Shown: positions 14,084-26,649 of the stretch, piece after piece | Layout: the number at the start of each line of letters is the position of its first letter | Position numbering within the stretch: position 1 is the stretch's first letter | Assembly: GCF_016790145.1 (NCBI RefSeq) | Contig: NZ_JAEUOI010000048.1 | Location: forward strand, 1-37,102 | Source: Propionivibrio sp. | Lineage (GTDB): Bacteria > Pseudomonadota > Gammaproteobacteria > Burkholderiales > Rhodocyclaceae | Length of the DNA stretch: 37,102 nucleotides | Direction: 5' to 3' | The notes under the pieces: generated by a model | What the model was told of the DNA's origin: nothing | Seen by the model: only the letters and a program-made list of their open reading frames with translations | Databases searched by the model: none | Program-made: the position numbers and the translations under genes

Positions 14084-15325
14084 TCAGGGCTGAACCTGAT
14101 CGATCACCAGTTTGTTGTTCTTGCTGCCGGGTTTGATGCCCTTGATGCTGCCGAAGAGATCGCCGCTTGAACTTTGCGCCTTGCCCGCCTTGGCGACCCG
14201 CGCTTCGAGACTGACCGTCCTGAACTCGGAAATTTTCTTTCCGCCCGGCAGGACCATTGAATCGTCAAAGCGGAAAGTGAGCGGCAGATCGGCCACCCGC
14301 GTCCGCATGACGGCGAGCGGCATGCGCGAGCCTTCTTCGGCACGCGCAAAAACAAAGAGCAGGTCGTCGGGTCTGGCTTGCGAAGCAACCTTGCCGCTGA
14401 TCGTTACCTCGCCACTGATGGATTCCTTGCGGGCAGCTGCCTCTTTGGACAGCTTGACGCTGCCCTCTTTTATGCCAGTTTTTTCGTTCATCTGGGCAGC
14501 AATTTCGCGTGCCTTGGTTACCGCCGCCGCGAGTGTCTCTGCCTCTTCCGAGCCGGGTTCGAGCTGCGGTAGCAGACGCCCCCAGTATTCGGCTACGGCA
14601 GAAAAGTCCTTGCGTTCACTGGCCGCAGTGCCAGCCAGGAACAGGGCCTGCGGTTCGTCCGGATCAATCTTCAGCGCACGGGCAATCAGTTGGCCCGGCT
14701 TGCCATCAAAACTGCCGCCTTGTGTCTGCGCCAGCACTTCGGCATAGTCGGCCAGCAACACCGGTTCGGCGTCGACCAGCGCACCGCCGTGGCTGTAGGC
14801 CTCGGCAGACTCGGCAAAACGGCCCAGCACCTTGTAGGAACGCGCCAGCATGACCCAGCCTTTGCTGTCGTCCGGATTCGCCTTGAGTTTCTCTACCAGA
14901 TTGCCCAGCATCGATTCGATCTGCTGCGGGCTGACTCGCGCCTGCGTCTGCAGCGGATCAAGCGCTTCCGGTTTGCCGAGGATCAAATAACCGGCCGTCG
15001 CCGCCAGCGGGATGGCAATGAGCAGGGCCAGCGCAGTCTTGCGTCCACCGGTACGTTCCTGAGCCACCGCCTCGGGCTGGACTTCTTCAAGCAGACGACG
15101 CTGCAATTCAGTCTTCGCCTGCTCGAAATCGGCTTCGGCGAGCGCACCTGCGCTCCGCTCGCGTTCGAGTTCGCCTAATTGATCGCGAAAGATGTCCAGA
15201 TTGGCTTGACGCCGATCAATGGCACTAGAGGCCCTGGGCGCACGCCAAAGCGGCAGCAGCAGAATGGCAAGTATGGCAAGGACAAGCAGTGCGGCGGCGA
15301 GGATGAAACCGGTCGTGGCAGACAT
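14084..15325 (-). CDS. ccmI: Cytochrome c maturation protein CcmI (CycH)
   Basis: 413 residues, last gene of the ccm operon. The N-terminus has a hydrophobic segment (FILAAALLVLAILAILLLPLW) followed by the CcmI signature RQANLDIFRDQLGELERERSAGALAEADFEQAKTEL split here as RQANLDIFRDQL and AEADFEQAKTELQRRLLEE. A second membrane segment (ALALLIAIPLAATAGYLIL) leads to periplasmic TPRs (AEAYSHGG, ALFLAGTAASERKDF). A C-terminal domain binds the apocytochrome. CcmI chaperones apocytochrome c to the CcmF/H heme lyase. Its ATG overlaps the ccmH stop by one base (TAATG). Confidence 0.95.
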   Translation of the reverse strand: MSATTGFILAAALLVLAILAILLLPLWRAPRASSAIDRRQANLDIFRDQLGELERERSAGALAEADFEQAKTELQRRLLEEVQPEAVAQERTGGRKTALALLIAIPLAATAGYLILGKPEALDPLQTQARVSPQQIESMLGNLVEKLKANPDDSKGWVMLARSYKVLGRFAESAEAYSHGGALVDAEPVLLADYAEVLAQTQGGSFDGKPGQLIARALKIDPDEPQALFLAGTAASERKDFSAVAEYWGRLLPQLEPGSEEAETLAAAVTKAREIAAQMNEKTGIKEGSVKLSKEAAARKESISGEVTISGKVASQARPDDLLFVFARAEEGSRMPLAVMRTRVADLPLTFRFDDSMVLPGGKKISEFRTVSLEARVAKAGKAQSSSGDLFGSIKGIKPGSKNNKLVIDQVQP

Positions 15326-15789
15326 TATCGAGGTTCTTTGACGTTCAGCAGGCGCTCGGCCTGTTGCTGTTCTTCTGTGCTGAGCGGCGAATCGTTGATC
15401 GCCTTGCTACGGCGGCGCAAGTAGAGAACCAGTGCGCCGAGGCCACCCACCAGGAGCAGCCCCGGACCAAACCACAAGAGCAGGGTTGTTCCCTTGAGCG
15501 GTGGCCGGTAGCGAACAAAATCGCCGTAGCGGCTGACCATGAAGTCCATTATTTCGGCGTCGCTCTTGCCCTGCTGGATCAGCGTGCGAATTTCGCGGCG
15601 CAAATCGTTGGCCAGTTCGGCATGCGAACCGGACAGCGATTCGTTCTGGCAGACCAGGCAGCGCAATTCGGATGAAATCGCCACCAGGCGCTTTTCGGTG
15701 GCCTCGTCCTGAGCCAGCGGTGCAGCTTCTTTGGCATGCAACTGCGCTGCCGACAACGCGAGCAGGATTGCCATGATCAAGACTTTCAT
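15325..15789 (-). CDS. ccmH: Cytochrome c maturation protein CcmH (CcmL/CycL type)
   Basis: 154 residues: a cleavable signal (VLIMAILLALSAAQLHA), the redox motif LRCLVCQN with Cys44 and Cys47, then SLSGSHAELANDLRREIR, and a C-terminal membrane helix (LLLWFGPGLLLVGGLGALVLYL) ending in RRR. CcmH reduces the CxxCH thiols of apocytochromes in the periplasm as part of the CcmF-CcmH lyase. This is the short form, with the TPR part supplied separately by CcmI. ATGA overlap with ccmG. Confidence 0.95.
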   Translation of the reverse strand: MKVLIMAILLALSAAQLHAKEAAPLAQDEATEKRLVAISSELRCLVCQNESLSGSHAELANDLRREIRTLIQQGKSDAEIMDFMVSRYGDFVRYRPPLKGTTLLLWFGPGLLLVGGLGALVLYLRRRSKAINDSPLSTEEQQQAERLLNVKEPR

Positions 15790-16370
15790 TTCGACAACTC
15801 TGCAAGCAGCGGCAGAATTTTGCCTGAGAAATCATCGCGGCTGATCGGGCCGGTGTGCTTCATGCGGATGATGCCGGCCTTGTCGATGAGGTAGGTTTCC
15901 GGTACGCCATAAACACCGTAGTCGATGCCGACGCGCCCGTCGAGGTCCAGCACCGAAAGGCGGTAAGGATTGCCGTGTTGCTTCAGCCAGGCATTTGAAC
16001 GCTCAAGCGCCAGCTTCCTTTCGGCGGCTGCGTCGAGCTTGTCCGCATCCAGCCCGCCATCACCGCGCACTTCCTTGTAATTGAGGCCGACCAGCGTCAC
16101 CCTATTGTTTTTCACCATGTCGACCAGCACCGGATGCTCCTGCCTACAGGAGACGCACCAGGTCGACCACACGTTGAGCAGCCACACCTTGCCGAGCATG
16201 TCCTGCGGCGAGAAGTTCTGCTCCGGTGCATCGAGCCGGGCCAGCGAAAACAGCGGTGCCGGCTTGCCAACCAGTGGCGAGGGCACATCGCGTGGGTTGA
16301 GATTGAGTCCGACGGCCAGCAGGACAACGAGTACAGCAAAGCCGATCAGCGGCCAGAGAAATCGATTCAT
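15786..16370 (-). CDS. ccmG: Thiol:disulfide interchange protein CcmG (DsbE)
   Basis: 194 residues with an N-terminal membrane anchor (LWPLIGFAVLVVLLAVGL) and a periplasmic thioredoxin fold. The active site is NVWSTWCVSCRQEHP (Cys72, Cys75) and the cis-Pro region is YGVPETYLIDKAG. CcmG supplies reductant, received from CcdA/DsbD, to CcmH and apocytochrome. GNPYRLSVLDLDGRVGIDYG is the acidic-loop region usual for the family. It ends with ATGA overlap into ccmH and starts 9 bases after ccmF. Confidence 0.95.
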   Translation of the reverse strand: MNRFLWPLIGFAVLVVLLAVGLNLNPRDVPSPLVGKPAPLFSLARLDAPEQNFSPQDMLGKVWLLNVWSTWCVSCRQEHPVLVDMVKNNRVTLVGLNYKEVRGDGGLDADKLDAAAERKLALERSNAWLKQHGNPYRLSVLDLDGRVGIDYGVYGVPETYLIDKAGIIRMKHTGPISRDDFSGKILPLLAELSK

Positions 16371-16379
16371 GAAGTGTCT

Positions 16380-18371
16380 TTAAGCTTTCTGCGCCAGCGC
16401 GCCGTCGATGCTTGAAGCGACGCGCGACCTGCTGCGATAGCGGCGGTCAGTCATCGCCAGGAGGCCACCGAGCGCCATCAGCACGCAGCCGCCCCAGATC
16501 CAGTCAACGAAGGGCTTGTGATAGACGCGCACGGCCCAGGCCGCGTCCGGCCTGGCCTTGTCGATGGGTTCGCCGAGCGAGACGTAGACGTCGCGCAGGA
16601 AGCCGGTGTCGATCGCCGCTTCGGTCATCGGCATCGATGACGAAACGTAGTTGCGTTTCTCCGGATTCATTTTCCGTATCGTCCTGTCGCCCTTCAACAG
16701 ATCGATGTCGCCGACCAGCGCCACGTAGTTCGGCCCCTTCTCCTGCCGCACGCCGTTAAAGCGGAAGGTATAGCCACCGACGCTTACGCTATCGCCGACC
16801 TCCATCTTCACGTCCTTTTCGGCCTGATAGCCATTGACCATCGCCACGCCGACGACGAAGACGGCGATGCCGACATGGGCGGTGTGCATGCCGAAAAAGC
16901 TGCGCGGCTGCTTCAGCGCGGCGGTCAGGAAAGGCTGGCCGGCGCGCGTGGACTGCACGCGTTCGACCAGGTTGAGCGACCCCGAAAAAACGATCCACGC
17001 CGCCAGCAGCAGGCTCAAGGCCACCAGCGGCTTCCATTCGCCGAAGAAGAAGGGTGCCACCAGTCCCACAACTGCAGCAGCGGCAAAGGCCCAGCGCAGG
17101 GTGCGTGCCAGTTCGCCGAAACTGGCCTGCTTCCAGCGGGCGAATGGCGCCACGCCCATCAGGAACAGGGCCGGGATCATCAAGGGAGCAAAGACCGAAT
17201 CAAAATAAGGCGGTCCGACCGACAGCTTGCCGGCACCGAGGGCGTCGATCAGCAGCGGATAGAGCGTGCCGAGCAATACCGTGGCACAGGCGACGACCAG
17301 CAGCACATTGTTGGTGAGCAGCAGCGATTCGCGCGAGAGCAGGGCGAAACGGCCACCCAGACCAACCTTGGGCGCACGCCAGGCGAAGAGGGCCAGCGAG
17401 CTGCCGATCACGGCAACCAGAAAAACGAGAATGAAGATGCCGCGACGCGGATCGGTGGCAAAGGCATGCACCGAGGTCAGCACGCCGGAACGCACGAGGA
17501 AGGTGCCGAGCAACGAAAGCGAGAAAGCGGAAATGGCCAGCAGCACCGTCCAGTTCTTGAAGCTGCCACGTTTCTCCGTCACCGCCAGCGAGTGAATCAG
17601 CGCGGTACCGACCAGCCACGGCATGAACGAGGCATTCTCGACCGGGTCCCAGAACCACCAGCCGCCCCAGCCGAGTTCGTAATACGCCCACCACGAGCCG
17701 AGCGCAATACCCAGCGTCAGGAAAATCCAGGCGGCCGTCGTCCACGGACGCGACCAGCGCGCCCAGGCGGCGTCGAGCTGGCCGGAAAGCAGGGCGGAAA
17801 CGGCAAAGGCATAGGCTACCGAGAAACCGACATAGCCCATGTAGAGCATCGGCGGATGGATGATCAACCCAGGATCCTGCAACAGCGGGTTGAGGTCGCG
17901 CCCTTCCTCGGCACCCGGCAGCAGGCGTTCGAAGGGGTTGGAGGTGATCAGGATGAAGAGCAGGAAACCGGCCGTGACGAGCGCCAGCACACCGAGTACG
18001 CGGGCCACCATGGGGTCCGGGAGTTGCTTAGAGAAGAGCGACACCGCCAGCGTCCACATCGCCAGCATCACCACCCAAAGCAGCAGCGAACCTTCATGCC
18101 CACCCCACACGGCTGCCACCCGATACGGCAAGGGCAGCAAGGTATTCGAATGCTGCGCCACATAGACAACCGAAAAATCGTTCTGTACGAAGGCGGTGGT
18201 CAGGCAGGCGAAGGCCACCGCCATCAGCAACGCCTGCGCCATCGCTGCCGGACGCGCCAGCGCGATCCATTCCGGCCGTCGCCAATGGGCGCCAAACAGT
18301 GGCAACGTACCCTGGAGGAGTGCCACGCACAGCCCGACGATGAGAGCGAAGTGACCGAGTTCAGGAATCAT
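16380..18371 (-). CDS. ccmF: Heme lyase subunit CcmF
   Basis: 663 residues from the ATG at 18371 (MIPELGHFALIVGLCVALLQ); the frame extends to 18476 but the extra 35 codons lie in a dispersed repeat. A polytopic inner-membrane protein with the WWD domain GWGGWWFWDPVENASFMPWL, and conserved VWGGHEGSLLLW and HPPMLYMGYVGF. CcmF with CcmH transfers heme from CcmE to apocytochromes. The large C-terminal periplasmic region is present. Length is standard for the family. A 142-base spacer separates it from ccmE, longer than usual for this operon. Confidence 0.96.
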   Translation of the reverse strand: MIPELGHFALIVGLCVALLQGTLPLFGAHWRRPEWIALARPAAMAQALLMAVAFACLTTAFVQNDFSVVYVAQHSNTLLPLPYRVAAVWGGHEGSLLLWVVMLAMWTLAVSLFSKQLPDPMVARVLGVLALVTAGFLLFILITSNPFERLLPGAEEGRDLNPLLQDPGLIIHPPMLYMGYVGFSVAYAFAVSALLSGQLDAAWARWSRPWTTAAWIFLTLGIALGSWWAYYELGWGGWWFWDPVENASFMPWLVGTALIHSLAVTEKRGSFKNWTVLLAISAFSLSLLGTFLVRSGVLTSVHAFATDPRRGIFILVFLVAVIGSSLALFAWRAPKVGLGGRFALLSRESLLLTNNVLLVVACATVLLGTLYPLLIDALGAGKLSVGPPYFDSVFAPLMIPALFLMGVAPFARWKQASFGELARTLRWAFAAAAVVGLVAPFFFGEWKPLVALSLLLAAWIVFSGSLNLVERVQSTRAGQPFLTAALKQPRSFFGMHTAHVGIAVFVVGVAMVNGYQAEKDVKMEVGDSVSVGGYTFRFNGVRQEKGPNYVALVGDIDLLKGDRTIRKMNPEKRNYVSSSMPMTEAAIDTGFLRDVYVSLGEPIDKARPDAAWAVRVYHKPFVDWIWGGCVLMALGGLLAMTDRRYRSRSRVASSIDGALAQKA

Positions 18372-18384
18372 GGGACGGTAACCT

Positions 18385-18520
18385 GGTGAGGAGTGAATAG
18401 TAAGGAGTCGGGAGCAAAAGCGAGTGGTGCCTTGCCTGTCTCGATGTGCTCGATATTCCGTTGGTTTCTTGCGCACATCGAATCATACCTCCTCACCCTT
18501 CACTCCCAACTCCTCACTGC
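18385..18520. repeat. Inverted short repeats in the ccmE-ccmF spacer
   Basis: gtgaggagtgaatagtaagg at 18386 (continuing agtcgggag) is mirrored by ctcctcacccttcactccca at 18489 (continuing actcctcac). The same aaggagtgaggagtcgggag text recurs at 19211-19230 in the ccmC-ccmD spacer. Confidence 0.65.
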
Positions 18521-18993
18521 TTAACCGTTTTGGCCGTAGCCTCAACCGCCGCCTTGTTCGCTGCAGCGCGCTGCTGTGCATCGCCAAGCGCCTTGGTGGC
18601 TTCCGGCGGCATATAGTTCTCGTCGTGTTTGGCAAGTACTTCACTGGCGACGAAAACGCCGTCCTCGCCGAGCTTGCCCTGGGCGACCGCGCCTTTGCCT
18701 TCCTTGAACAGGTCGGGCAGGATTCCCTTGTAGGCGACGATCATGTCCCGCTCGGTGTCGGTCATGACAAAACGCAGGGTGACACCGTCGGCTTCGCGCT
18801 TGATCGTACCTTCCTTGACCAGGCCGCCGATGCGGAACGACTTGCCCTTGGGCGCCTCGCCCGCCGCCACTTGCGTCGGCGAGAAAAAGAATACCAGATT
18901 GCTCTGGAAGGCGTTGAGTACCAGCGCGACGACAAGGCCGAGAACGGCCAGCCCGCCGATGATCAGCGCGATACGCTTGTGACGTGTTTTCAA
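18514..18993 (-). CDS. ccmE: Periplasmic heme chaperone CcmE
   Basis: 159 residues beginning at a TTG codon (18993-18991), preceded by AAAGGT six bases upstream; no nearby ATG exists in frame, so the TTG start is well supported. One N-terminal membrane anchor ([19 protein letters not shown]) is followed by an OB-fold. The heme-attachment motif is [11 protein letters not shown] with His123 and Tyr127 (HxxxY type). CcmE receives heme from CcmC/CcmAB and hands it to CcmF. Ala/Lys-rich C-terminal tail, variable in the family. Three bases separate it from ccmD. Confidence 0.95.
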
Positions 18994-18996
18994 TGC

Positions 18997-19194
18997 TTAC
19001 CTTTGGGATTGTGTTGAACGTTCAGTCTTCTCGGCACGAAACTGACGCTTCAGGCGCGCGACAAGACTCTTCTGACCGCGAACCAGCAGAACCGGTTCCA
19101 GCACCATCAGGAGTGCCATGACGCCGACCGAACCCCAGACGTAGATGCCGTGGGTGCCCATGGCCAGAAATTCGGAAAAGCTGTTCCAGTACAT
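18997..19194 (-). CDS. ccmD: Heme exporter protein CcmD
   Basis: 65 residues: MYWNSFSEFLAMGTHGIYVW, one membrane helix (SVGVMALLMVLEPVLLV), and a basic cytoplasmic tail (RLKRQFRAEKTERS). This is the usual small CcmD that tethers CcmC, CcmAB and CcmE. Its position between ccmC and ccmE confirms the call. Confidence 0.92.
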   Translation of the reverse strand: MYWNSFSEFLAMGTHGIYVWGSVGVMALLMVLEPVLLVRGQKSLVARLKRQFRAEKTERSTQSQR

Positions 19195-19210
19195 AGGGTC
19201 AGTGATGTGT

Positions 19211-19230
19211 AAGGAGTGAGGAGTCGGGAG
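19211..19230 (+). repeat. Dispersed repeat copy in the ccmC-ccmD spacer
   Basis: aaggagtgaggagtcgggag, same family as the repeats at 18386 and 18489. A similar stretch (cgctcccaactcctcgcgca, 19317-19336) lies in the 3' coding end of ccmC. Confidence 0.55.
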
Positions 19231-19298
19231 AATAAGTGGCAGGCGGTGTAGGGCTTACGCTGGGTTCAGGAGGCTGGCGACTTGCTGCGTTCATCATT

Positions 19299-20057
19299 TT
19301 ATTGCTCCTTGGCCTTCGCTCCCAACTCCTCGCGCACCCACTCCGTGTGCCGCTCGCGCTCGAGCATGATGGTGCGTACCCGCATCAGCGCGACAGCGAT
19401 GGCGTACATCCAGCAGGCCAGGGCACAGAGCAGCATGCCGATGAGCATGGTCATGGCCATCGAGGGCGATTTGGTCAGGCTGACCGACGAACCCTGGTGC
19501 AGCGTGTTCCACCACTTCACAGAGAAATAGATGATCGGAATGTTGACCACGCCGACCAGCGCCAGGATGGCACCGGCCTTGTCGGCGCGGCGCGGATCGT
19601 CAATCGCCGACTGCAGGGCGATGAAACCGACGTAGAGAAAAAGCAGGATCAGTTCGGAGGTCAGGCGGGCGTCCCACACCCACCAGGTACCCCACATCGG
19701 TTTGCCCCACAAGGCGCCGGTCCACAGTGACAGAAAGGCGAACAGCGCTCCCGTCGGCGCCAGCGCCGTGGCCATCATGCCCGACAGACGGAAGTTGAAG
19801 GCCAGCCCCAGCCCGGCCCAGAAGGCCATCACCAGGTAGATGAACATCGACATCCACGACGCCGGCACGTGCAGGAAGATGATGCGGTAGCCCTCGCCCT
19901 GCTGCGCATCGGTCGGCGCCACGAGAAAACCCACATACAAGCCGGCAATGCCGAACACGGCGGACAGCGCCCAGAACCACGGAATCATCCTCCCGGCGAG
20001 TGGGTAGAAGGCTTGCGGGCTGGCGAATCTGAACCAGTTGATCAATCGTTTATCCAT
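19299..20057 (-). CDS. ccmC: Heme exporter/handling protein CcmC
   Basis: 252 residues, six predicted membrane helices. The WWD-domain motif is WGTWWVWDARLTSEL, with flanking periplasmic His in IIFLHVPASWMSMF and KWWNTLHQGSSV. CcmC loads heme onto CcmE. The C-terminal tail (MLERERHTEWVREELGAKAK) is charged and cytoplasmic, and its DNA overlaps one of the short repeat copies. It lies between ccmB and ccmD as in the classical order. Confidence 0.95.
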   Translation of the reverse strand: MDKRLINWFRFASPQAFYPLAGRMIPWFWALSAVFGIAGLYVGFLVAPTDAQQGEGYRIIFLHVPASWMSMFIYLVMAFWAGLGLAFNFRLSGMMATALAPTGALFAFLSLWTGALWGKPMWGTWWVWDARLTSELILLFLYVGFIALQSAIDDPRRADKAGAILALVGVVNIPIIYFSVKWWNTLHQGSSVSLTKSPSMAMTMLIGMLLCALACWMYAIAVALMRVRTIMLERERHTEWVREELGAKAKEQ

Positions 20058-20145
20058 TTAGAAAAAAGTTGAAACCTCTTCTAACGAAGGGGCCGCATAG
20101 AAAATCGGCATTTATTCCTTGGCTGAGTGGCGATCCTCTCGGAAA

Positions 20146-20172
20146 ACTCTGCGCACTCTGCGTCTCTGCGTT
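20146..20172. repeat. Simple repeat in the ccmB-ccmC spacer
   Basis: actctgcgcactctgcgtct followed by ctgcgtt: near-tandem CTCTGCG units of the kind that recur between genes in many environmental proteobacteria. Confidence 0.5.
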
Positions 20173-20197
20173 GAAAGTGCTTACGTTTTTACGCCAC

Positions 20198-20866
20198 TTA
20201 CTCCAAAGCAATGCGCAAAGCCGCTGCCGTTGGCCACGGTGCGAAAAACACGCCAGCCAGCGTCAGTGCGCCGAGCAGCGACAGATGGGCTTGTGCGCCC
20301 AGGCCGGTCACCGTCGCATCGACCGCACCGGCGCCGAAAACCAGAACCGGAATATACAGGGGAAGAACCAGCAGCGACAGTAGCACGCCGCCGCCACGCA
20401 CTCCCAGCGTCAGCGCCGCACCGATGGCACCAATAGCGGACAGCGCCGGAGTACCGATGAGCAGCGAACAGGTCAGCACCCACAGGGCGTCGGTAGACAG
20501 GTCGAACTGGAGGCCCAGTACCGGCGTCAGCAGCGCCAGCGGCAGGCCCGAAACCAGCCAGTGCGCCAACACCTTGCCAAGTACGATCAGACCCAGTGGC
20601 TGCGGTGCCAGCGCCAGTTGCTCCAGGGTGCCATCGCGATGGTCGTCGGCGAACAGGCGCGGCAGCGAGAGCATGGTGGCGAGCAGCGCCGCAACCCACA
20701 GCACGCCCGGCGCCAGTTTGCGCAGCAGTTCCGGCTCCGGGCCGACGCCGAGCGGAAACAGGCTGACGACGATGATGAAAAAGAACAGCGCCGAAACGAT
20801 GTCGGCCCGTCGCCGCATGGCCAGACGCAGATCGCGGCTGATGATGGCACTAACGAGTTTCAGCAT
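20198..20866 (-). CDS. ccmB: Heme exporter permease CcmB
   Basis: 222 residues from the ATG at 20866 (MLKLVSAIISRDLRLAMRRR); the frame runs on to 20950, but those 28 codons fall in repeat DNA and lengthen the protein beyond the usual about 220. Six hydrophobic segments, with the conserved cytoplasmic region PRLFADDHRDGTLEQLAL and LVSGLPLALLTPVLGL. It forms an ABC transporter with CcmA that releases holo-CcmE from CcmCD. Spacers on both sides (about 140-160 bases) are long for a ccm operon. Confidence 0.94.
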   Translation of the reverse strand: MLKLVSAIISRDLRLAMRRRADIVSALFFFIIVVSLFPLGVGPEPELLRKLAPGVLWVAALLATMLSLPRLFADDHRDGTLEQLALAPQPLGLIVLGKVLAHWLVSGLPLALLTPVLGLQFDLSTDALWVLTCSLLIGTPALSAIGAIGAALTLGVRGGGVLLSLLVLPLYIPVLVFGAGAVDATVTGLGAQAHLSLLGALTLAGVFFAPWPTAAALRIALE

Positions 20867-20919
20867 CTTCTTGGCCCACTCGTCGTACAGGTGCCGGTTC
20901 GTCGGCCATAGACTTCCAA

Positions 20920-21016
20920 CGCAAGGGCGCAAAGAGAAAGGAAGCGACAAGGAAGGCCAGGCAAAGTCAAGTCATCGGCTTTCTTTACGTTAGCTTTGCC
21001 TCTTTGCGCCTTTGTG
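20920..21016. repeat. Inverted dispersed repeat in the ccmA-ccmB spacer
   Basis: cgcaagggcgcaaagag at 20920-20936 pairs with ctctttgcgcctttgtg at 21000-21016 (15 of 17). These GCGCAAAG-rich units resemble widely scattered intergenic repeats and can fold into a hairpin. Confidence 0.6.
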
Positions 21017-21029
21017 GTGGATTTTTCAG

Positions 21030-21659
21030 TCATGCTCGTCCACCCGGCGCCAGAACCAGCTCGCAAATCTTGCCGGCGGCGACCGCGACTGCCTGATGCG
21101 TGGTCAGCACCGCCAGCCCGCCGCGTTGCAAATGGGCTCCGATCAATCCGGCGACTCGTTCGATCGCCGACGAATCAAGCGCCACGTAAGGTTCGTCCAG
21201 TACCCACAGTGCCCGTCGCTCATTGACCAGCCGCGCCAGGGCGACACGGCGCTTCTGCCCCTGCGACAGGTAACGGCAGGCCAGATCCTCGCGCCCGGCC
21301 AGACCGACCTGCTCCAGCGCGTCGAGCGCGGCACCTTCGTCAAGCGCTTCGTCGGCCAACCTGGCCGAGGCCAGCAGGTTTTCCAGCGGCGTCAGTTCTT
21401 CCTTGATGGCGTTTAGGTGTCCGAGATAACACAGCTCGCGGCGATAATCCTCGCCGAGCTTGCCGATCAATTCACCGCGCCAGCGAATTTCACCCTCCTC
21501 AGCGGGCGACAGCGAACAGAGCATGCGCAGCAGGCTGGTTTTGCCTGAACCATTGGCCCCCTGCAAATAAAGCATCTCGCCGGCGTCCAGCCGGAATCCG
21601 ACCCCGGCAAAAAGGCGTCGTTCGCCGCGAATACATTCAAGGTTGGAAACTTCAAGCAT
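21030..21659 (-). CDS. ccmA: Heme exporter ATPase CcmA
   Basis: 209 residues from the ATG at 21659 (MLEVSNLECIRGERRLF); the upstream 22 codons of the open frame are probably leader. Walker A is QGANGSGKTSLLRML, the ABC signature is YLSQGQKRRVALARL, Walker B is LWVLDEPYVALD, and the switch His is in LTTHQ. It powers CcmB. As first gene of ccmABCDEFGHI it follows a 250-base region with an FNR-like site, so the operon promoter is expected there. Confidence 0.95.
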   Translation of the reverse strand: MLEVSNLECIRGERRLFAGVGFRLDAGEMLYLQGANGSGKTSLLRMLCSLSPAEEGEIRWRGELIGKLGEDYRRELCYLGHLNAIKEELTPLENLLASARLADEALDEGAALDALEQVGLAGREDLACRYLSQGQKRRVALARLVNERRALWVLDEPYVALDSSAIERVAGLIGAHLQRGGLAVLTTHQAVAVAAGKICELVLAPGGRA

Positions 21660-21716
21660 GCAGGGGATTCGAGGGAGGGGAAGACCGCAGTGTGCAGCAT
21701 CCAGTTTAACTTTGGA

Positions 21717-21730
21717 TTGATGCAAATCAC
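21717..21730. promoter_or_regulatory. FNR/ANR-type binding site upstream of ccmA
   Basis: TTGAT-gcaa-ATCAC matches the FNR-family consensus TTGAT-N4-ATCAA at 9 of 10 positions. Its centre is about 64 bases before the ccmA ATG. If it sat at -41.5, transcription would start near 21682, about 23 bases before ccmA. This suggests oxygen- or NO-responsive control of cytochrome c maturation. The remaining 21660-21908 region shows no gene. Confidence 0.6.
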
Positions 21731-21908: not shown

Positions 21909-23297
21909 TCATTGTCGCGGAAATTCAATACGCACTCGCAATCCGTTCGATTCACTTTGTGACAGATGAATAACGGCACCATGGAGTTCCGTAATTTCCT
22001 TGACGATTGGAAGTCCTAATCCACAACCATTGCTTGACGAACCCGGAATGCGATAGAAGCGTTCAAACACTTGCGCCCAATATTCTTCCGGTATGCCTGG
22101 CCCACTGTCCTCAACCTCAAGGAAAGCCATCTCGATTGTTTCACCGCAACGAACAGTAACCGTCCCACCGCAAGGGGTGTAGCGAATTGCATTGTCGATG
22201 AGATTGGCAAGAGCTTCCTGAAGTAACCAGGGAAGTCCAATAACTCTAGCTGGCGAAATATTGAATCCAAGATCGACATTTTTTGCCAATGCGGCATCAA
22301 GATAAGCGGTTGCAGACATTTCAACGATTTGATCGAGAGAAACCTGCTCCAGTCTATCGGTTATTGTTTCGGAAGCTTCCGCACGGGCATATGTCAATAG
22401 CTGACCAAGAAGGCGTCGAAGGCGCTCGGTTCCTTCCTCAATTTTTTGTAGACGCCCTTCATTTTGAGAAAAAACCCCCTCGCTTACTGCCAGATCGAGT
22501 TGAGTCTGCAAGCCTGCCAGTGGCGTGCGCAATTGGTGAGCGGCATCCGCGATAAATCGTTGTTGTGCCTCCGATGCTTCGCGTAGCAATGCGAAAAGTT
22601 CATTCAGTCTGAGCAGCATAGGCTGTATTTCACGAGGAGTCTGCTCCAGATCAATTGCGCCCAGATCATTGGGGGAACGAGAAGCGATCTCATTTTCGAC
22701 CACTTCGAGGGGAAGCAAACCCTGACGCACACCAAATAATACGGCTAACAGTGAAGCAATAATCACGGCCAGATTGGGAAGTAGCATGGCCGTCAAAATT
22801 CTATGCCTTGAAAGCTTACGCTTCTCAGTCGTTTCCATGACCGTAATGAAGATTTCGGAGGCTGGCAGGATGACCCGATGCAAAGCAATGCGTACCCGTT
22901 CCCCCCGATGTGTACCATCAAGAAACATTATTCCATTACCTTTTGGCATTGAGAGGACTGGAATGTCATCGTCACCCGCCAATATTTTGCCGGAACTGTC
23001 GCGTATGGAAAAGTAGAGTTTGTCTGGAGCGTTGGTTCGTAGCATAACCTCGCTCTCTTCGCTCAAATCCAGTACCGAAGAGGGCTGACGGCTTCGTATA
23101 TGTGATTCAAGGTCGAAAACGGTATCGGATAACCCCTGATCGTGAGCGGAGTCGGAGGTTTTCCTTGCCAGACGATAATCCAGGAGCGAACTGATACATA
23201 GAATAAAAATCAAGGGAATCGATAGCGCCAATATCAGGCGTCGGCGCAGGCCTGGTGGTTCGTTTCTGCTGATGACGCGATCAGTTATCTGGCGCAT
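21909..23297 (-). CDS. TctE-like sensor histidine kinase
   Basis: 462 residues from the ATG at 23297, which lies 17 bases inside the response-regulator gene (coupled translation). Membrane helices at about 20-38 and 167-190 flank a periplasmic domain opening LLDYRLARKTSDSAHDQGL, the 2CSK_N-type sensor of TctE kinases. Cytoplasmic motifs: H box DAAHQLRTPLAGLQ (His254), N box NLIDNAIRYTP, G1 VEDSGPGIPEE, G2 GCGLGLPIVKE. TctE relatives often sense carboxylates, but the ligand here cannot be read from sequence. The position next to a multiheme cytochrome cluster suggests it controls that cluster. Base composition looks less GC-rich than the ccm genes. Confidence 0.9.
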   Translation of the reverse strand: MRQITDRVISRNEPPGLRRRLILALSIPLIFILCISSLLDYRLARKTSDSAHDQGLSDTVFDLESHIRSRQPSSVLDLSEESEVMLRTNAPDKLYFSIRDSSGKILAGDDDIPVLSMPKGNGIMFLDGTHRGERVRIALHRVILPASEIFITVMETTEKRKLSRHRILTAMLLPNLAVIIASLLAVLFGVRQGLLPLEVVENEIASRSPNDLGAIDLEQTPREIQPMLLRLNELFALLREASEAQQRFIADAAHQLRTPLAGLQTQLDLAVSEGVFSQNEGRLQKIEEGTERLRRLLGQLLTYARAEASETITDRLEQVSLDQIVEMSATAYLDAALAKNVDLGFNISPARVIGLPWLLQEALANLIDNAIRYTPCGGTVTVRCGETIEMAFLEVEDSGPGIPEEYWAQVFERFYRIPGSSSNGCGLGLPIVKEITELHGAVIHLSQSESNGLRVRIEFPRQ

Positions 23298-23952
23298 CGA
23301 CACGGTAGCCAATTCCGCGGATCGTACGGATGGTGACATTCCCATGAGATAGTTTGGTGCGCAGGCGGGAAACGTGCACTTCTATTGCATTCTGTGTGAT
23401 GTCTTTATCCCATCCGGCGAGGCTTTGTACCAGTTTGTCTTTGCTGACCACGGCGGGCGAGGCCATGAGTAATAGTTCTAGAATCGCCCATTCGCGATTG
23501 GTCAGATCAAGAGGTATGGCATCAAGGGTTGCAGCACGACTTCGCGTGTCGAGACATAGTCCGTTATGGCGCAAGCAGGCATCGGCAATGGAGTTGGAGC
23601 GCCTGATCAGGGCCCGAATCCGGGCAGCGATTTCGGGGAGGCGATAGGGCTTTGTTAGGTAATCATCAGCTCCTGCATCAAGGCCGTTGACCGTGTCTTC
23701 CATGCTGTCCCGGGCAGTCAGAACCAATACCGGGAAATTTTTGCTTTGGGCTCTGAGTTGTTTTATAAAGTGTAGGCCATCTGCTTTTGGCAACCCGATG
23801 TCGACCAGAGCCAGGTCGAAATCTTCAAATTGAATGAAGCGCTCGGCTTCCTCTGCACTGCCAGCAACATCGACGGTATAACCCAGTTGCGTCAGACCCT
23901 GCTTCAGCCCATCGGCGACCAACAACTCATCTTCTACGACCAGGATCCGCAT
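23281..23952 (-). CDS. OmpR-family response regulator (TctD/QseB-like)
   Basis: 223 residues. A receiver domain with acidic pocket VVEDE, phospho-acceptor Asp51 in LALVDIGLPKADG, Thr79 in LVLTARD and Lys101 in DDYLTKPY. The C-terminal winged helix spans about 125-220 (LTNREWAILELLL, VHVSRLRTKL, IRTIRGIGYRV). It is co-directional with the kinase behind it and the tetraheme cytochrome gene in front, 55 bases away, and is likely part of the same transcript. A tandem 12-bp repeat directly upstream (23974-23997) is a candidate binding site. Confidence 0.92.
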   Translation of the reverse strand: MRILVVEDELLVADGLKQGLTQLGYTVDVAGSAEEAERFIQFEDFDLALVDIGLPKADGLHFIKQLRAQSKNFPVLVLTARDSMEDTVNGLDAGADDYLTKPYRLPEIAARIRALIRRSNSIADACLRHNGLCLDTRSRAATLDAIPLDLTNREWAILELLLMASPAVVSKDKLVQSLAGWDKDITQNAIEVHVSRLRTKLSHGNVTIRTIRGIGYRVDAPDN

Positions 23953-23973
23953 TTATAAGTTTTTCCAGCATTG

Positions 23974-23997
23974 TTGTCGAGAGAACTGCCGAGAGAA
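23974..23997 (-). promoter_or_regulatory. Tandem 12-bp direct repeat before the response regulator gene
   Basis: ttgtcgagagaa at 23974-23985 and ctgccgagagaa at 23986-23997 agree at 10 of 12 bases, with a 12-base period. OmpR-type regulators bind two direct half-sites about one helical turn apart, so this may be an autoregulatory site; not proven. Confidence 0.4.
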
Positions 23998-24007
23998 TCA
24001 GTTTGAT

Positions 24008-24604
24008 CTACTCCTGTGCTTTTACCATGACATCACTCGGCTCGGCACCGCCCTGGGGTTCTTTGTGAGCAATTCCAAAGTGGCAATCAATACAGGTCTT
24101 ACTCCCATTGCCTAATTTGAGGTGCTGTTTCTGAGCAGTCTTACCCTGCTTCTCAGGGTCCATCGAATTGACATCATGGCAGTTCCGGCATTCTTTGGAA
24201 TCTGTTTCTTTCATTCGCAACCAGACGCGCTTTGCCAGTTCCAGGCGGTGCTCCTCGAACTTTTCCTTGGTGTCAATCGTGCCGGCGAAATGCTGGAAGA
24301 CATCGTTTGCGGCCTTTACCTTGCGTATCGTTGTGTCCATGAAACCATGGGGTACGTGACAATCAGAGCACGTCGTTTTCACACCGGTGCGGTTCCTGGC
24401 ATGGATAGTAGTCTTGTATTCCTCGTAATTGTTGTCTTTCATTTCATGGCATGAGGTGCAGAATTCAAGCGTATTCGTCTGGTCTACAGCAGTTTTTCCT
24501 CCTGCAAAAACCAAGCCTCCAAGCAGTATAAGCGCCAGCGATTCGATAGCAAAAATAGTGGCCCATTTCTTCCGATTTGAAAGCCATTCACGAATTGAAC
24601 TCAT
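24008..24604 (-). CDS. NapC/NirT-family tetraheme c-type cytochrome (CymA-like quinol dehydrogenase)
   Basis: 198 residues. One N-terminal membrane anchor (TIFAIESLALILLGGLVFAGG) without cleavage, then four CxxCH heme sites: CTSCH (49-53), CSDCH (79-83), CRNCH (139-143) and CIDCH (171-175). The layout and the segment PHGFMDTTIRKVKAANDVFQH identify the NapC/NirT/CymA family. These proteins take electrons from quinol (or in reverse give to quinone) and exchange them with periplasmic partners. No nitrate, nitrite or TMAO reductase gene is adjacent; the neighbours are a divergent outer-membrane cytochrome and a two-component system. The short size resembles CymA. The heme count is read directly; its partner is inferred. 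Confidence 0.93.
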   Translation of the reverse strand: MSSIREWLSNRKKWATIFAIESLALILLGGLVFAGGKTAVDQTNTLEFCTSCHEMKDNNYEEYKTTIHARNRTGVKTTCSDCHVPHGFMDTTIRKVKAANDVFQHFAGTIDTKEKFEEHRLELAKRVWLRMKETDSKECRNCHDVNSMDPEKQGKTAQKQHLKLGNGSKTCIDCHFGIAHKEPQGGAEPSDVMVKAQE

Positions 24605-24658
24605 CTTGCATTCCCTTGAGATAGGCGCCAGATGATTACTTTCTAAAGCTTAAGGAAG

Positions 24659-24700
24659 CCTGACGAAACCCGAGTTACGTTAACGATTTTTAGCGTCAGG
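24659..24700. promoter_or_regulatory. Nested palindromes in the divergent cytochrome promoter region
   Basis: cctgacg (24659-24665) and cgtcagg (24694-24700) are inverted around a nearly central palindrome cgttaacg (24678-24685). This lies between the divergent starts of the tetraheme cytochrome and the Cyc2-like gene, where an operator would be expected. The regulator is unknown. Confidence 0.4.
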
Positions 24701-24756
24701 AAATCGCAAGCTTGATGGGCGGAAAATCAGGCTGTTTCTATTTCGGAAAGAATGTC

Positions 24757-26136
24757 ATGTCAGTTTTTACTGCTAATTTTCCAAAACCCTGTGGACGCTA
24801 TTGGTTGCAGTTTTTCAGGAATATTGCTTGCGCAGTCTCTTTGTTCGGAATTTCAGCATCCGTGGCGCTCGCCGTTCCGAGTTATGCACGACAGACTGGC
24901 GCTGACTGTGCGTCATGTCATATCGGCGGGTTCGGGCCACAGTTGACACCTTACGGGATGAAATTCAAGCTCGGCGGTTATACGGACACAGACGGCAAGG
25001 ACGGAAAGATACCTTTGTCCGCAATGCTTGTCGCGAACTGGACACAGACCGCAAAAAACGTCGCCGAGGCTGACAAGGTTCCTCGTTACGACACGAATAA
25101 CAATGCTGCGGTTCAGGAAGCGTCGCTTTTCCTGGCTGGCCGCATGACTGAAAACATTGGGACTTTCATACAGGCTACCTATTCCGGCGTCGAGCGATTG
25201 TCGTCCCTCGATCAAGTCGACATACGTTATGCGCGCACTATGGAACTCTTTGGTCAGGAATCAACATTTGGCTTGTCACTCAATAACAACCCAACGTTGA
25301 CCGATCCCTTCAATACGCTCGGCCAATGGCGATTTCCATACACATCATCCGACTTCAATGCCGGCTATGGTCCGTCACCGCTGGTTGAAAGTCTCGGCGG
25401 AAGCGTGATCGGGGTAAATGCGTATACGTTCCTAAATAACGGAATTTATGCCGAACTTGGTCTTTATGACACGCTTTCTGCATCTACGCTCAACAAGATC
25501 AACGCTGAAGACATCGGGCAATTCAAGGGCTTGGGAACGTACTGGCGAGTTGCCTACTTTAAGGACATGAAGCGAGACAATTTTCAGGTCGGCCTCTTCG
25601 GGTTTAATGCCAGGGTACAGCCAGACCGTAACGATCTCGGAACTGCAAATAACTACTTCGATCTTGGCGTCGATGGCACATACCAGTTCCTGGGTAATCG
25701 CGAACATATCTTCACGCTGAACGCAAGTTACGCGAAGGAGTGGCAGAAGCTCAACTATACCTACGGCAACCTCGCTGAAGCCGACAATCTGAAGAACAAC
25801 ATCAATCAGTTCCGCCTGGCAGGTTCTTACTATTACAACCAGACCTGGGGAGCCACGGCCGGGATATTCGATACGCGTGGAAGTACTGATCGGACGCTTT
25901 ATAGCAACTCCTTGAGTGGACGACCCACAACAACAGGCTATCTCCTTCAGGCTGACTGGACACCTTGGGGCAAAGAAAATTCCTGGGGCGCGCCGTACGC
26001 GAACGTTCGTCTGGGTGCTCAATACACTGGATACTCTCGATTCATGGGAGGTTCCTCGTATCTTGACGGAGATGGAAACCAGCGTCGTGCCAATGACAAC
26101 AACACCACAATGCTTTTCCTCTGGATGTCACTCTAG
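24757..26136 (+). CDS. Outer-membrane monoheme cytochrome fused to a beta-barrel (Cyc2-like)
   Basis: 459 residues from the ATG at 24757, which follows GGAAAG by 6 bases; an earlier ATG at 24712 adds 15 residues with no good ribosome site. A signal peptide ends near SASVALA-VPSYAR. One heme motif, CASCH (51-55), lies just after it, within PSYARQTGADCASC and followed by FGPQLTPYGMKFKLGGY, strongly like the N-terminus of Cyc2-type fused cytochrome-porins. The rest is rich in aromatic, Asn and Gly residues with alternating strands and ends LFLWMSL, as expected of an outer-membrane barrel. Cyc2 proteins oxidise Fe(II) at the cell surface; this member could instead exchange electrons with another extracellular donor or acceptor. 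The barrel is inferred by eye. Confidence 0.75.
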   Translation: MSVFTANFPKPCGRYWLQFFRNIACAVSLFGISASVALAVPSYARQTGADCASCHIGGFGPQLTPYGMKFKLGGYTDTDGKDGKIPLSAMLVANWTQTAKNVAEADKVPRYDTNNNAAVQEASLFLAGRMTENIGTFIQATYSGVERLSSLDQVDIRYARTMELFGQESTFGLSLNNNPTLTDPFNTLGQWRFPYTSSDFNAGYGPSPLVESLGGSVIGVNAYTFLNNGIYAELGLYDTLSASTLNKINAEDIGQFKGLGTYWRVAYFKDMKRDNFQVGLFGFNARVQPDRNDLGTANNYFDLGVDGTYQFLGNREHIFTLNASYAKEWQKLNYTYGNLAEADNLKNNINQFRLAGSYYYNQTWGATAGIFDTRGSTDRTLYSNSLSGRPTTTGYLLQADWTPWGKENSWGAPYANVRLGAQYTGYSRFMGGSSYLDGDGNQRRANDNNTTMLFLWMSL

Positions 26137-26268
26137 GGGAATCGATAACCACGATTTGGCCATTGATTCAAATTTGGGAATACGGAGATTGCCTGGCATG
26201 ATTGATTCCCGCTTGAGCTCAAATGGCTGTTGATCAGATTCTCAATTGAATATAGGAAAATGCTGACC

Positions 26269-26649
26269 ATGAAGAATTATTCGATATTGCTTGCTGCCTT
26301 GCTGCTCTACCCGGCTATTTCACAGCAATCTTTTGCAGCCGGTGATGCCAAGAAAGGAGCCAACGTATTTGCCGAGGAATGTGGCGACTGCCACAGCGTT
26401 ACTCCTGGAAAGAACAAGAAAGGACCGGGTTTGTTCGGCGTCATTGGACGCAATGCAGCGTCTGTTCCGGATTTCTCCGGTTATTCAGACGGAATCAAGC
26501 AAAGCGGCATAACGTGGTCGATGGACAAGTTAGATGCCTACATTACCCAGCCTAGAAAAATAGTACCTGGAGGTAAAATGAAATATGATGGGCTGGACGA
26601 CGCTGGCGCTCGTTCAGATGTTATAGCCTACCTGTCTTCACTGAAATAG
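26269..26649 (+). CDS. Periplasmic class I monoheme cytochrome c
   Basis: 126 residues from the ATG at 26269, with AGGA 11 bases upstream; the ATG at 26260 is too close to it. The signal peptide is MKNYSILLAALLLYPAISQQSFA-AGD. The mature protein has GANVFAEECGDCHSV with CGDCH at 38-42, GPGLFGVIGR, and the Met axial ligand in GGKMKYDGL (Met104). This is a soluble cytochrome c2/c550-like carrier. It lies 132 bases after the Cyc2-like gene in the same direction and is a natural shuttle between it and inner-membrane components such as the tetraheme cytochrome or a terminal oxidase. Confidence 0.93.
   Translation: MKNYSILLAALLLYPAISQQSFAAGDAKKGANVFAEECGDCHSVTPGKNKKGPGLFGVIGRNAASVPDFSGYSDGIKQSGITWSMDKLDAYITQPRKIVPGGKMKYDGLDDAGARSDVIAYLSSLK

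Follow-up and report, generated by a model that had tools for sequence, protein, structure and literature searches.

Cyc2 proteins, three of which have been tested biochemically as Fe(II) oxidases, are recognised by one CXXCH motif near the N terminus of a polypeptide of at least 365 amino acids, the sequence AXPXFAR[QK][TY] upstream of this motif and PXL 4 aa downstream of it, and a potential of +208 mV is given for Cyc2-PV1 (PMC8406198). The proteins of A. ferrooxidans, Mariprofundus (Cyc2-PV1) and Leptospirillum (Cyt572) carry a signal peptide, the single CxxCH, the sequence AxPx[FY]ARQT just upstream of it and a fused 16-stranded porin resembling OprO/OprP. The same features, the porin by prediction, are found in a protein, hereafter the barrel, encoded in the window analysed here, a 37,102-nucleotide stretch of Propionivibrio sp. 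(assembly GCF_016790145.1, contig NZ_JAEUOI010000048.1, positions 1 to 37,102). It differs from these Cyc2 proteins in having Tyr for Phe and five residues between CxxCH and PxL, and in belonging to a separate lineage. Instead of the rus and cox genes of the Acidithiobacillus cyc2 locus (PMC10654088), its neighbours code for an OmpR-type regulator pair, a NapC/NirT-family tetraheme cytochrome as candidate quinone module and a small cytochrome c.

Other described systems resemble parts of this locus. In the Mto/ImoA system of Sideroxydans, a NapC/NirT tetraheme with a CXXCHXM motif and a small monoheme cytochrome likewise link an outer-membrane cytochrome to the quinone pool (PMC13390432), but at the outer membrane it has a decaheme inserted in a porin that is a protein of its own (MtoAB), whereas the window encodes a single fused monoheme porin. 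In iron oxidisers with Cyc2, the Fe(II)-responsive irc cluster (Slit_1321-1324) groups a b-type cytochrome of the inner membrane with small c cytochromes of the periplasm; the excerpts consulted name no Cyc2 gene in it, and its likeness to the cytochrome b561 genes described below is one of general description (PMC12442390, PMC8788666). Two-component control of Fe(II)-oxidation genes is also exerted by RegB/RegA of A. ferrooxidans, which is, however, described as a global redox regulator (PMC5506826), whereas the regulator pair of the window is linked and of the OmpR type, with its putative sites concentrated at the locus.

The five-gene locus is considered, with a probability of about 0.7, to be a quinone-linked, Cyc2-type electron conduit that is horizontally mobile and has its own two-component regulator. 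The computed basis for this reading consists of the gene anatomy, the predicted fold of the barrel, the linkage of the genes in relatives, the alternation of NapC with cytochrome b561 and the shared promoter sites concentrated at the locus; from these we infer electron transfer and its order, binding of the regulator, the substrate and the direction of flow. Open reading frame (ORF) and profile checks of the window confirmed the five genes at the positions previously noted, together with the features ascribed to them (Table 1).

Table 1. Features of the Cyc2-type locus in the Propionivibrio sp. window
Feature	Position	Strand	Details
Sensor histidine kinase (HK), QseC/PmrB-like	21909..23345	-	478 aa; Pfam 2CSK_N + HisKA + HATPase_c
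Response regulator (RR), OmpR-type	23281..23952	-	223 aa; Response_reg + Trans_reg_C
NapC/NirT-family tetraheme cytochrome c, membrane-anchored, candidate quinone module	24008..24604	-	198 aa; four CxxCH; Cytochrom_NNT
Putative RR site, left arm (NapC side)	24649..24665	+	3 mismatches vs consensus
Putative RR site, right arm (barrel side)	24694..24710	-	0 mismatches vs CTTGCGANNNCCTGACG
Cyc2-type fused cytochrome-porin (barrel)	24757..26136	+	459 aa; signal peptide, AVPSYARQT-GAD-CASCH, 16-stranded barrel (predicted)
Class I monoheme cytochrome c, periplasmic, candidate shuttle	26260..26649	+	129 aa; one CxxCH; Pfam PF00034

On the minus strand the order of genes is NapC, RR and HK, with 55 bases between the first two, while the barrel gene, present as a single copy in the genome, precedes the cytochrome c gene on the plus strand; the gap between the divergent NapC and barrel genes measures 152 bases. 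As listed, the HK ORF overlaps the RR gene by 65 bases, and its true start may therefore be later. The tetraheme comprises a NapC/NirT domain (PF03264, E 3.2e-66, residues 18-184) with its four CxxCH motifs and an N-terminal membrane helix read from the sequence. It had been described in an earlier note on this DNA as CymA-like, and its family and heme number stand. Heme 1, however, reads CTSCHEM, i.e. CXXCHXM, and the Met of this motif is present in NrfH, some NapC proteins and ImoA and is absent from CymA (PMC13390432), so that the label NapC/ImoA-like fits better. Similarly, the TctD/TctE-like pair of that note is a two-component pair, but the best NCBIfam models are PmrA for the RR and QseC for the HK, with TctD third for the RR and all scores under the curated cut-offs.

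Profile searches with the barrel gave two Pfam matches, both below cut-off, and none in NCBIfam at E <= 1, nor was there a match among PDB sequences at E <= 10. Structure prediction returned with high confidence a 16-stranded porin (pLDDT 88.8) resembling 16-stranded and general porins, in agreement with the barrel proposed in the earlier note, and the C-terminal 16-stranded porin of Cyc2 proteins is thus present in the predicted structure. The label Cyc2-like also holds, in that the protein shows full-length homology to proteins bearing the Cyc2 motif. Its single CxxCH lies at residues 51-55 of 459, and a single CxxCH and a length of 365 residues or more are shared by all 79 alignment rows, that of the window among them. 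The motif AVPSYARQT departs from AXPXFAR[QK][TY] in one position (Y for F); the strict motif occurs in 43 of the 79 rows and a relaxed form in 78. PQL is present, but stands five residues after CxxCH rather than at the published spacing, as does PxL in 78 of the 79 rows, while among 15 other, hand-picked homologues the spacing is three residues in 11 and five in four. The barrel is accordingly best described as a probable Cyc2-type protein of a separate lineage with five, not three, residues between CxxCH and PxL, and as a possible member of Cyc2 in the strict sense. Uliginosibacterium gangwonense DSM 18521 has been listed with Cyc2-like genes (PMC5566968); the same strain is represented in the barrel tree (L148), possibly by the same gene. 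The homologue on the A. ferrooxidans plasmid CP084173.1 (L184) is annotated as a hypothetical protein, and is followed by a c-type cytochrome gene with a transposase alongside.

The linkage of the genes was assessed in 80 of 112 confirmed loci from a scan of named genomes that used barrel patterns only, some loci being near-copies of one another. Linkage was scored for cytochrome c matches above 50 bits within 3 kb of the barrel, NapC matches above 50 bits within 6 kb, b561 ORF clusters within 5 kb, and HK or RR matches above 100 bits within 6 kb. The small cytochrome c has an orthologue adjoining the barrel in 71 of the 80 loci, and in all six of the nearest relatives outside the named set. 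A quinone-active membrane protein is encoded near the barrel in 55 loci, this being NapC in 12 and cytochrome b561 in 43 and never both, and a two-component gene (HK or RR) in 44. The identity of b561 was confirmed by PF01292 in five of five proteins tested with Pfam. HK and RR homologues also occur near the barrel in other genera, and the recurrence of the same genes together there points to an association beyond chance; the genes are thus linked rather than scattered, in keeping with the earlier note, and neither of the outcomes that would have refuted that note, a protein outside Cyc2-like families with no barrel predicted or an unlinked gene set, was observed. The existence of an alternative quinone partner to the tetraheme was not visible from the window alone. 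NapC and the barrel are divergent in the window and in eight named loci, while NapC lies downstream in the same orientation in L111, L135, L156 and L173; in G057, the RR, HK, barrel, cytochrome c and first part of NapC follow one another in one orientation up to the end of the contig (the contigs of L132, L135, L145 and L150 are those of G382, G057, G416 and G199, respectively). Carriers not marked as metagenome-assembled genomes include Zoogloea sp. LCSB751, Thauera sp. 2A1, Ideonella azotifigens, Paucibacter and Uliginosibacterium.

Individual loci show further neighbours. In the Thiotrichaceae locus L053 (10629-14042; genome G382, the contig of L132), the barrel, b561 and cytochrome c genes adjoin additional cytochromes c and the gene for the small subunit of a NiFe hydrogenase. 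A small secreted protein resembling, by eye, a pseudoazurin-type copper protein is encoded 203-661 bases upstream of the barrel in L181, with ccm genes nearby. The Nitrosomonas loci L176 and L178 have neither quinone module nor cytochrome c near the barrel; its neighbours in both are a response regulator and a protein of ~515 aa that looks alike in the two loci on inspection.

Trees of the barrel and NapC were built by quick searches with SH-aLRT support only. In the barrel tree, which misplaced three of the eight outgroup rows, the distribution of NapC and b561 requires at least four changes. For this tree L180 (split frame) was dropped, the N terminus of L108 is cut and the starts of L160 and L174 are approximated. 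The clade of the window comprises 11 rows (10 with NapC and one cut) and has an SH-aLRT of 100. The NapC proteins linked to barrels in this clade form one branch with the NapC of a Rhodopila relative (support 93, below the 95 mark), those of L135 and L156 stand on long branches elsewhere, and 29 other NapC proteins fall apart from the barrel-linked branch, 26 in one branch and three in another; the comparison comprised 30 other rows, one being the copy of the window itself, and covered part of the NapC proteins found. It is chiefly from this alternation of two unrelated quinone-active proteins next to one and the same pair of barrel and cytochrome that an exchange of electrons between the pair and the quinone pool is argued.

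In nine loci, that of the window and those of eight relatives, the gap between NapC and the barrel carries two 17-bp sites in inverted orientation, CTTGCGANNNCCTGACG ... CGTCAGGNNNTCGCAAG, with 0-3 mismatches per arm. In the window, no site of the 37 kb other than these two arms scores above 12. With a matrix that leaves the window out, its arms reach 13.5 and 22.8; among 2000 dinucleotide shuffles of the gap none reached the best arm, and none reached the weaker arm on both strands. With at most one mismatch allowed, 22 sites were found in the nine genomes with divergent NapC, 15 at the barrel locus and seven elsewhere, and all eight perfect sites lie at the locus; 16 of the 22 were inspected individually, the other six being partner arms that lie at most 50 bases from them on the contigs concerned. 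A wider regulon was rejected as the seven sites off the locus compare with 14 for a reversed-pattern control and show no excess. A related site, mostly CCTTCAANNNCCTGACR, occurs within 300 bases upstream of b561, where it exceeds the 95th percentile of control in 26 of 27 kinase-linked loci as compared with one of 12 without a kinase, a count made at a lower threshold in a defined region against 390 control stretches from the same loci, which may overlap true sites. None of these b561 sites exceeds the 99th percentile of control. Before the region was redrawn, some ORF starts being too early, the counts were 20 of 29 regulator-linked loci and one of 14 others; L118, L132, L147 and L172 were not measurable afterwards, and the loci in these counts are related and thus not independent. 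Twenty-four of the 26 sites are oriented like the barrel-side arm.

The sites resemble tandem half-sites of the OmpR family, comparable with the PmrA box, and the response regulator may act at the paired sites. In the PmrA box the half-sites likewise lie ~11 bp apart (CTTAAT and CCTAAG with 5 bp between; PMC3973317), while the site of the window clade is CTTGCGANNNCCTGACG. Upstream of b561 in L151 and L158, PmrA box-like sequences (CTTAAG-N5-CTTAAT and CTTAAT-N5-CTTAAG) were observed, with no linked two-component system found at these loci. ExxE metal-sensing motifs occur in PmrB. A role of the linked kinase as Fe(III) sensor through ExxE was discarded, with the motif in only 15 of 40 kinases, the window included, and at varying positions.

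The five genes have a GC content of 0.48-0.53 and a third-position GC content (GC3) of 0.45-0.56, as against 0.55-0.65 and 0.62-0.86 in the 17 flanking ORFs read in frame, the GC3 comparison leaving out ccmA with its off-frame value. No full-length barrel was found in the 27 congeners searched, several of which are incomplete, an 82-residue match occurring in one of them. The AT-rich composition and the absence of a full-length barrel from these congeners are most simply read as horizontal gain, and the module was likely acquired in this way. Base composition and promoter sites together lend further support to the self-contained character and dedicated regulator proposed in the earlier note. 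The module is situated between ccmA and a gene referred to here as gene X, probably at a synteny break. Among 16 congener loci of gene X an SDR gene stands alongside in eight, as in the window, and is missing from the stretch in the other eight, while ccmA is present in none. In G010, ccmB and gene X lie ~0.8 Mb apart on one contig, and in other congeners they are on different contigs, which is less telling; none of the 16 loci offers a simple empty insertion site. The ccm cluster (ccmABC, ccmFGHI; window 14084-21725) directly adjoins the module, and ccm genes are also found beside the barrel in L062 and L181. The ccm operon was nevertheless rejected as a constant part of the module, being present in only three of the 80 named loci (stretches of up to 10 kb on either side).

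In the proposed mechanism, a small dissolved redox species would enter the 16-stranded pore and there give one electron to the single heme or take one from it. Transport through the periplasm would fall to the adjacent class I cytochrome c, and exchange with the quinone pool to the tetraheme of the NapC type, cytochrome b561 taking its place in most relatives that have a linked quinone module. The linked kinase and response regulator would switch the gene set through the divergent promoter, with one 17-bp site per direction. By homology to the tested Cyc2 proteins, the substrate may be Fe(II)-like ions.

Several observations weigh against this conduit. Among the 61 loci with long flanks, NapC is present in nine, b561 in 37 and neither in 15, and a quinone module is hence not obligatory in cis; five of the 44 two-component matches lack a quinone module, these being mostly weak RR-only matches that may be unrelated. 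The site consensus was drawn by eye from the nine divergent loci, and its presence in nine of nine is not an independent test, while the 72 other loci gave no excess at the strict score of 13, with 11 sites found where shuffles predict 12.7. In L102, the closest relative, the GC content of the barrel does not stand out from that of the locus. Low-potential tetrahemes of the NapC type stand against the +208 mV of Cyc2-PV1, so that flow from barrel to NapC would be uphill (PMC13390432, PMC8406198), and, by comparison, the small cytochrome MtoD at +155 mV does not interact with ImoA (PMC13390432). The genome contains no other NapC/NirT protein at E <= 1e-20 and has a Cytochrom_D1 match of nitrite-reductase size, and the tetraheme might therefore also or instead serve other periplasmic enzymes, for example in nitrite reduction.

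The direction of flow divides the evidence, homology favouring uptake and the potentials and type of quinone module favouring export, with uptake slightly ahead. In the uptake direction, held here as the leading option at somewhat short of even odds, the barrel would oxidise dissolved Fe(II) or a similar ion, cytochrome c would pass electrons to a terminal oxidase or nitrite reductase, and NapC or b561 would feed part of them into the quinone pool. This is suggested by the homology to Cyc2 proteins, three of which were tested biochemically as Fe(II) oxidases (PMC8406198), and by the association of a CymA/ImoA-type protein and a b-type-cytochrome cluster with iron oxidation in Sideroxydans (PMC12442390, PMC8788666), where ImoA is proposed by its authors as a quinone reducer despite its potential range of 0 to -400 mV and its oxidation of quinol in Shewanella (PMC13390432). 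The RuBisCO large-chain and Cytochrom_D1 matches in the genome are compatible with lithotrophy; RuBisCO matches, however, occur in eight of the 13 NapC-version genomes, the present one included, and are missing in five, among them the closest relative. The lineage is moreover separate from the homologues with three-residue spacing, and reduction of NapC from a carrier at +150 to +200 mV is uphill on the reported potentials.

Export, which is considered somewhat less likely, would begin with the oxidation of quinol by NapC or b561; the electrons would then pass by way of cytochrome c and the barrel to a dissolved extracellular acceptor, for example chelated Fe(III), Mn or quinones. NapC/NirT proteins are quinol dehydrogenases facing the periplasm. 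The host genera are largely heterotrophs and denitrifiers, and 10 of the 13 NapC-version genomes, the present one included, have Cytochrom_D1 matches. This direction is downhill on the reported potentials, and ImoA oxidises quinol in Shewanella as noted above. A monoheme pore is, on the other hand, poorly able to contact solids, and the excerpts of the literature consulted describe no Cyc2-type protein reducing an extracellular acceptor. A Cyc2-type pore with interchangeable quinol dehydrogenases (NapC or b561), which would on demand send electrons from respiration to a soluble acceptor outside the cell, is regarded as the boldest reading and as rather unlikely.

It is improbable that the genes are separate neighbours, with NapC serving nitrite reduction or another periplasmic reductase and the unit confined to barrel and cytochrome c. 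The Cytochrom_D1 match and lack of a second NapC/NirT protein would agree with such an arrangement, but the linkage of barrel and NapC persists despite rearrangement between divergent and co-directional loci, the linked NapC proteins of the window clade group together, and NapC and the barrel share a promoter region with paired sites. NapA, which would mark the tetraheme as the NapC of a periplasmic nitrate reductase, was not found over cut-off in the genome and is present in three of the 13 NapC-version genomes, and in three others of the 13 (G470, G472 and G477, completeness not given) both NapA over cut-off and Cytochrom_D1 are missing. A porin of the ordinary kind whose heme is structural would suit a fold that matches general porins and a conduit function that is predicted, but is very unlikely given that cytochrome c is the commonest neighbour (71 of 80) and a quinone-active redox protein is added in 55 of 80.

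Cyc2-like genes in organisms not known as iron oxidisers have already been published (PMC5566968, PMC8406198). Among the open-licence PMC papers searched, none came to notice as describing an operon of Cyc2 with b561 or NapC, and a Cyc2-type operon with alternative NapC and b561 partners and its own regulator appears, as far as these searches reach, to be new. Evidence for the periplasmic carriers and inner-membrane proteins of Cyc2 is limited (PMC12442390), and the hand-over of electrons from Cyc2-type proteins to the inner membrane is poorly known; the present lineage unites candidate partners and a regulator in one unit. If the direction is export, the locus would represent a minimal, transferable kit for extracellular respiration in common heterotrophs and denitrifiers, opposite to the role in which Cyc2 is known, and the findings would caution against taking every Cyc2-like gene as a sign of iron oxidation.

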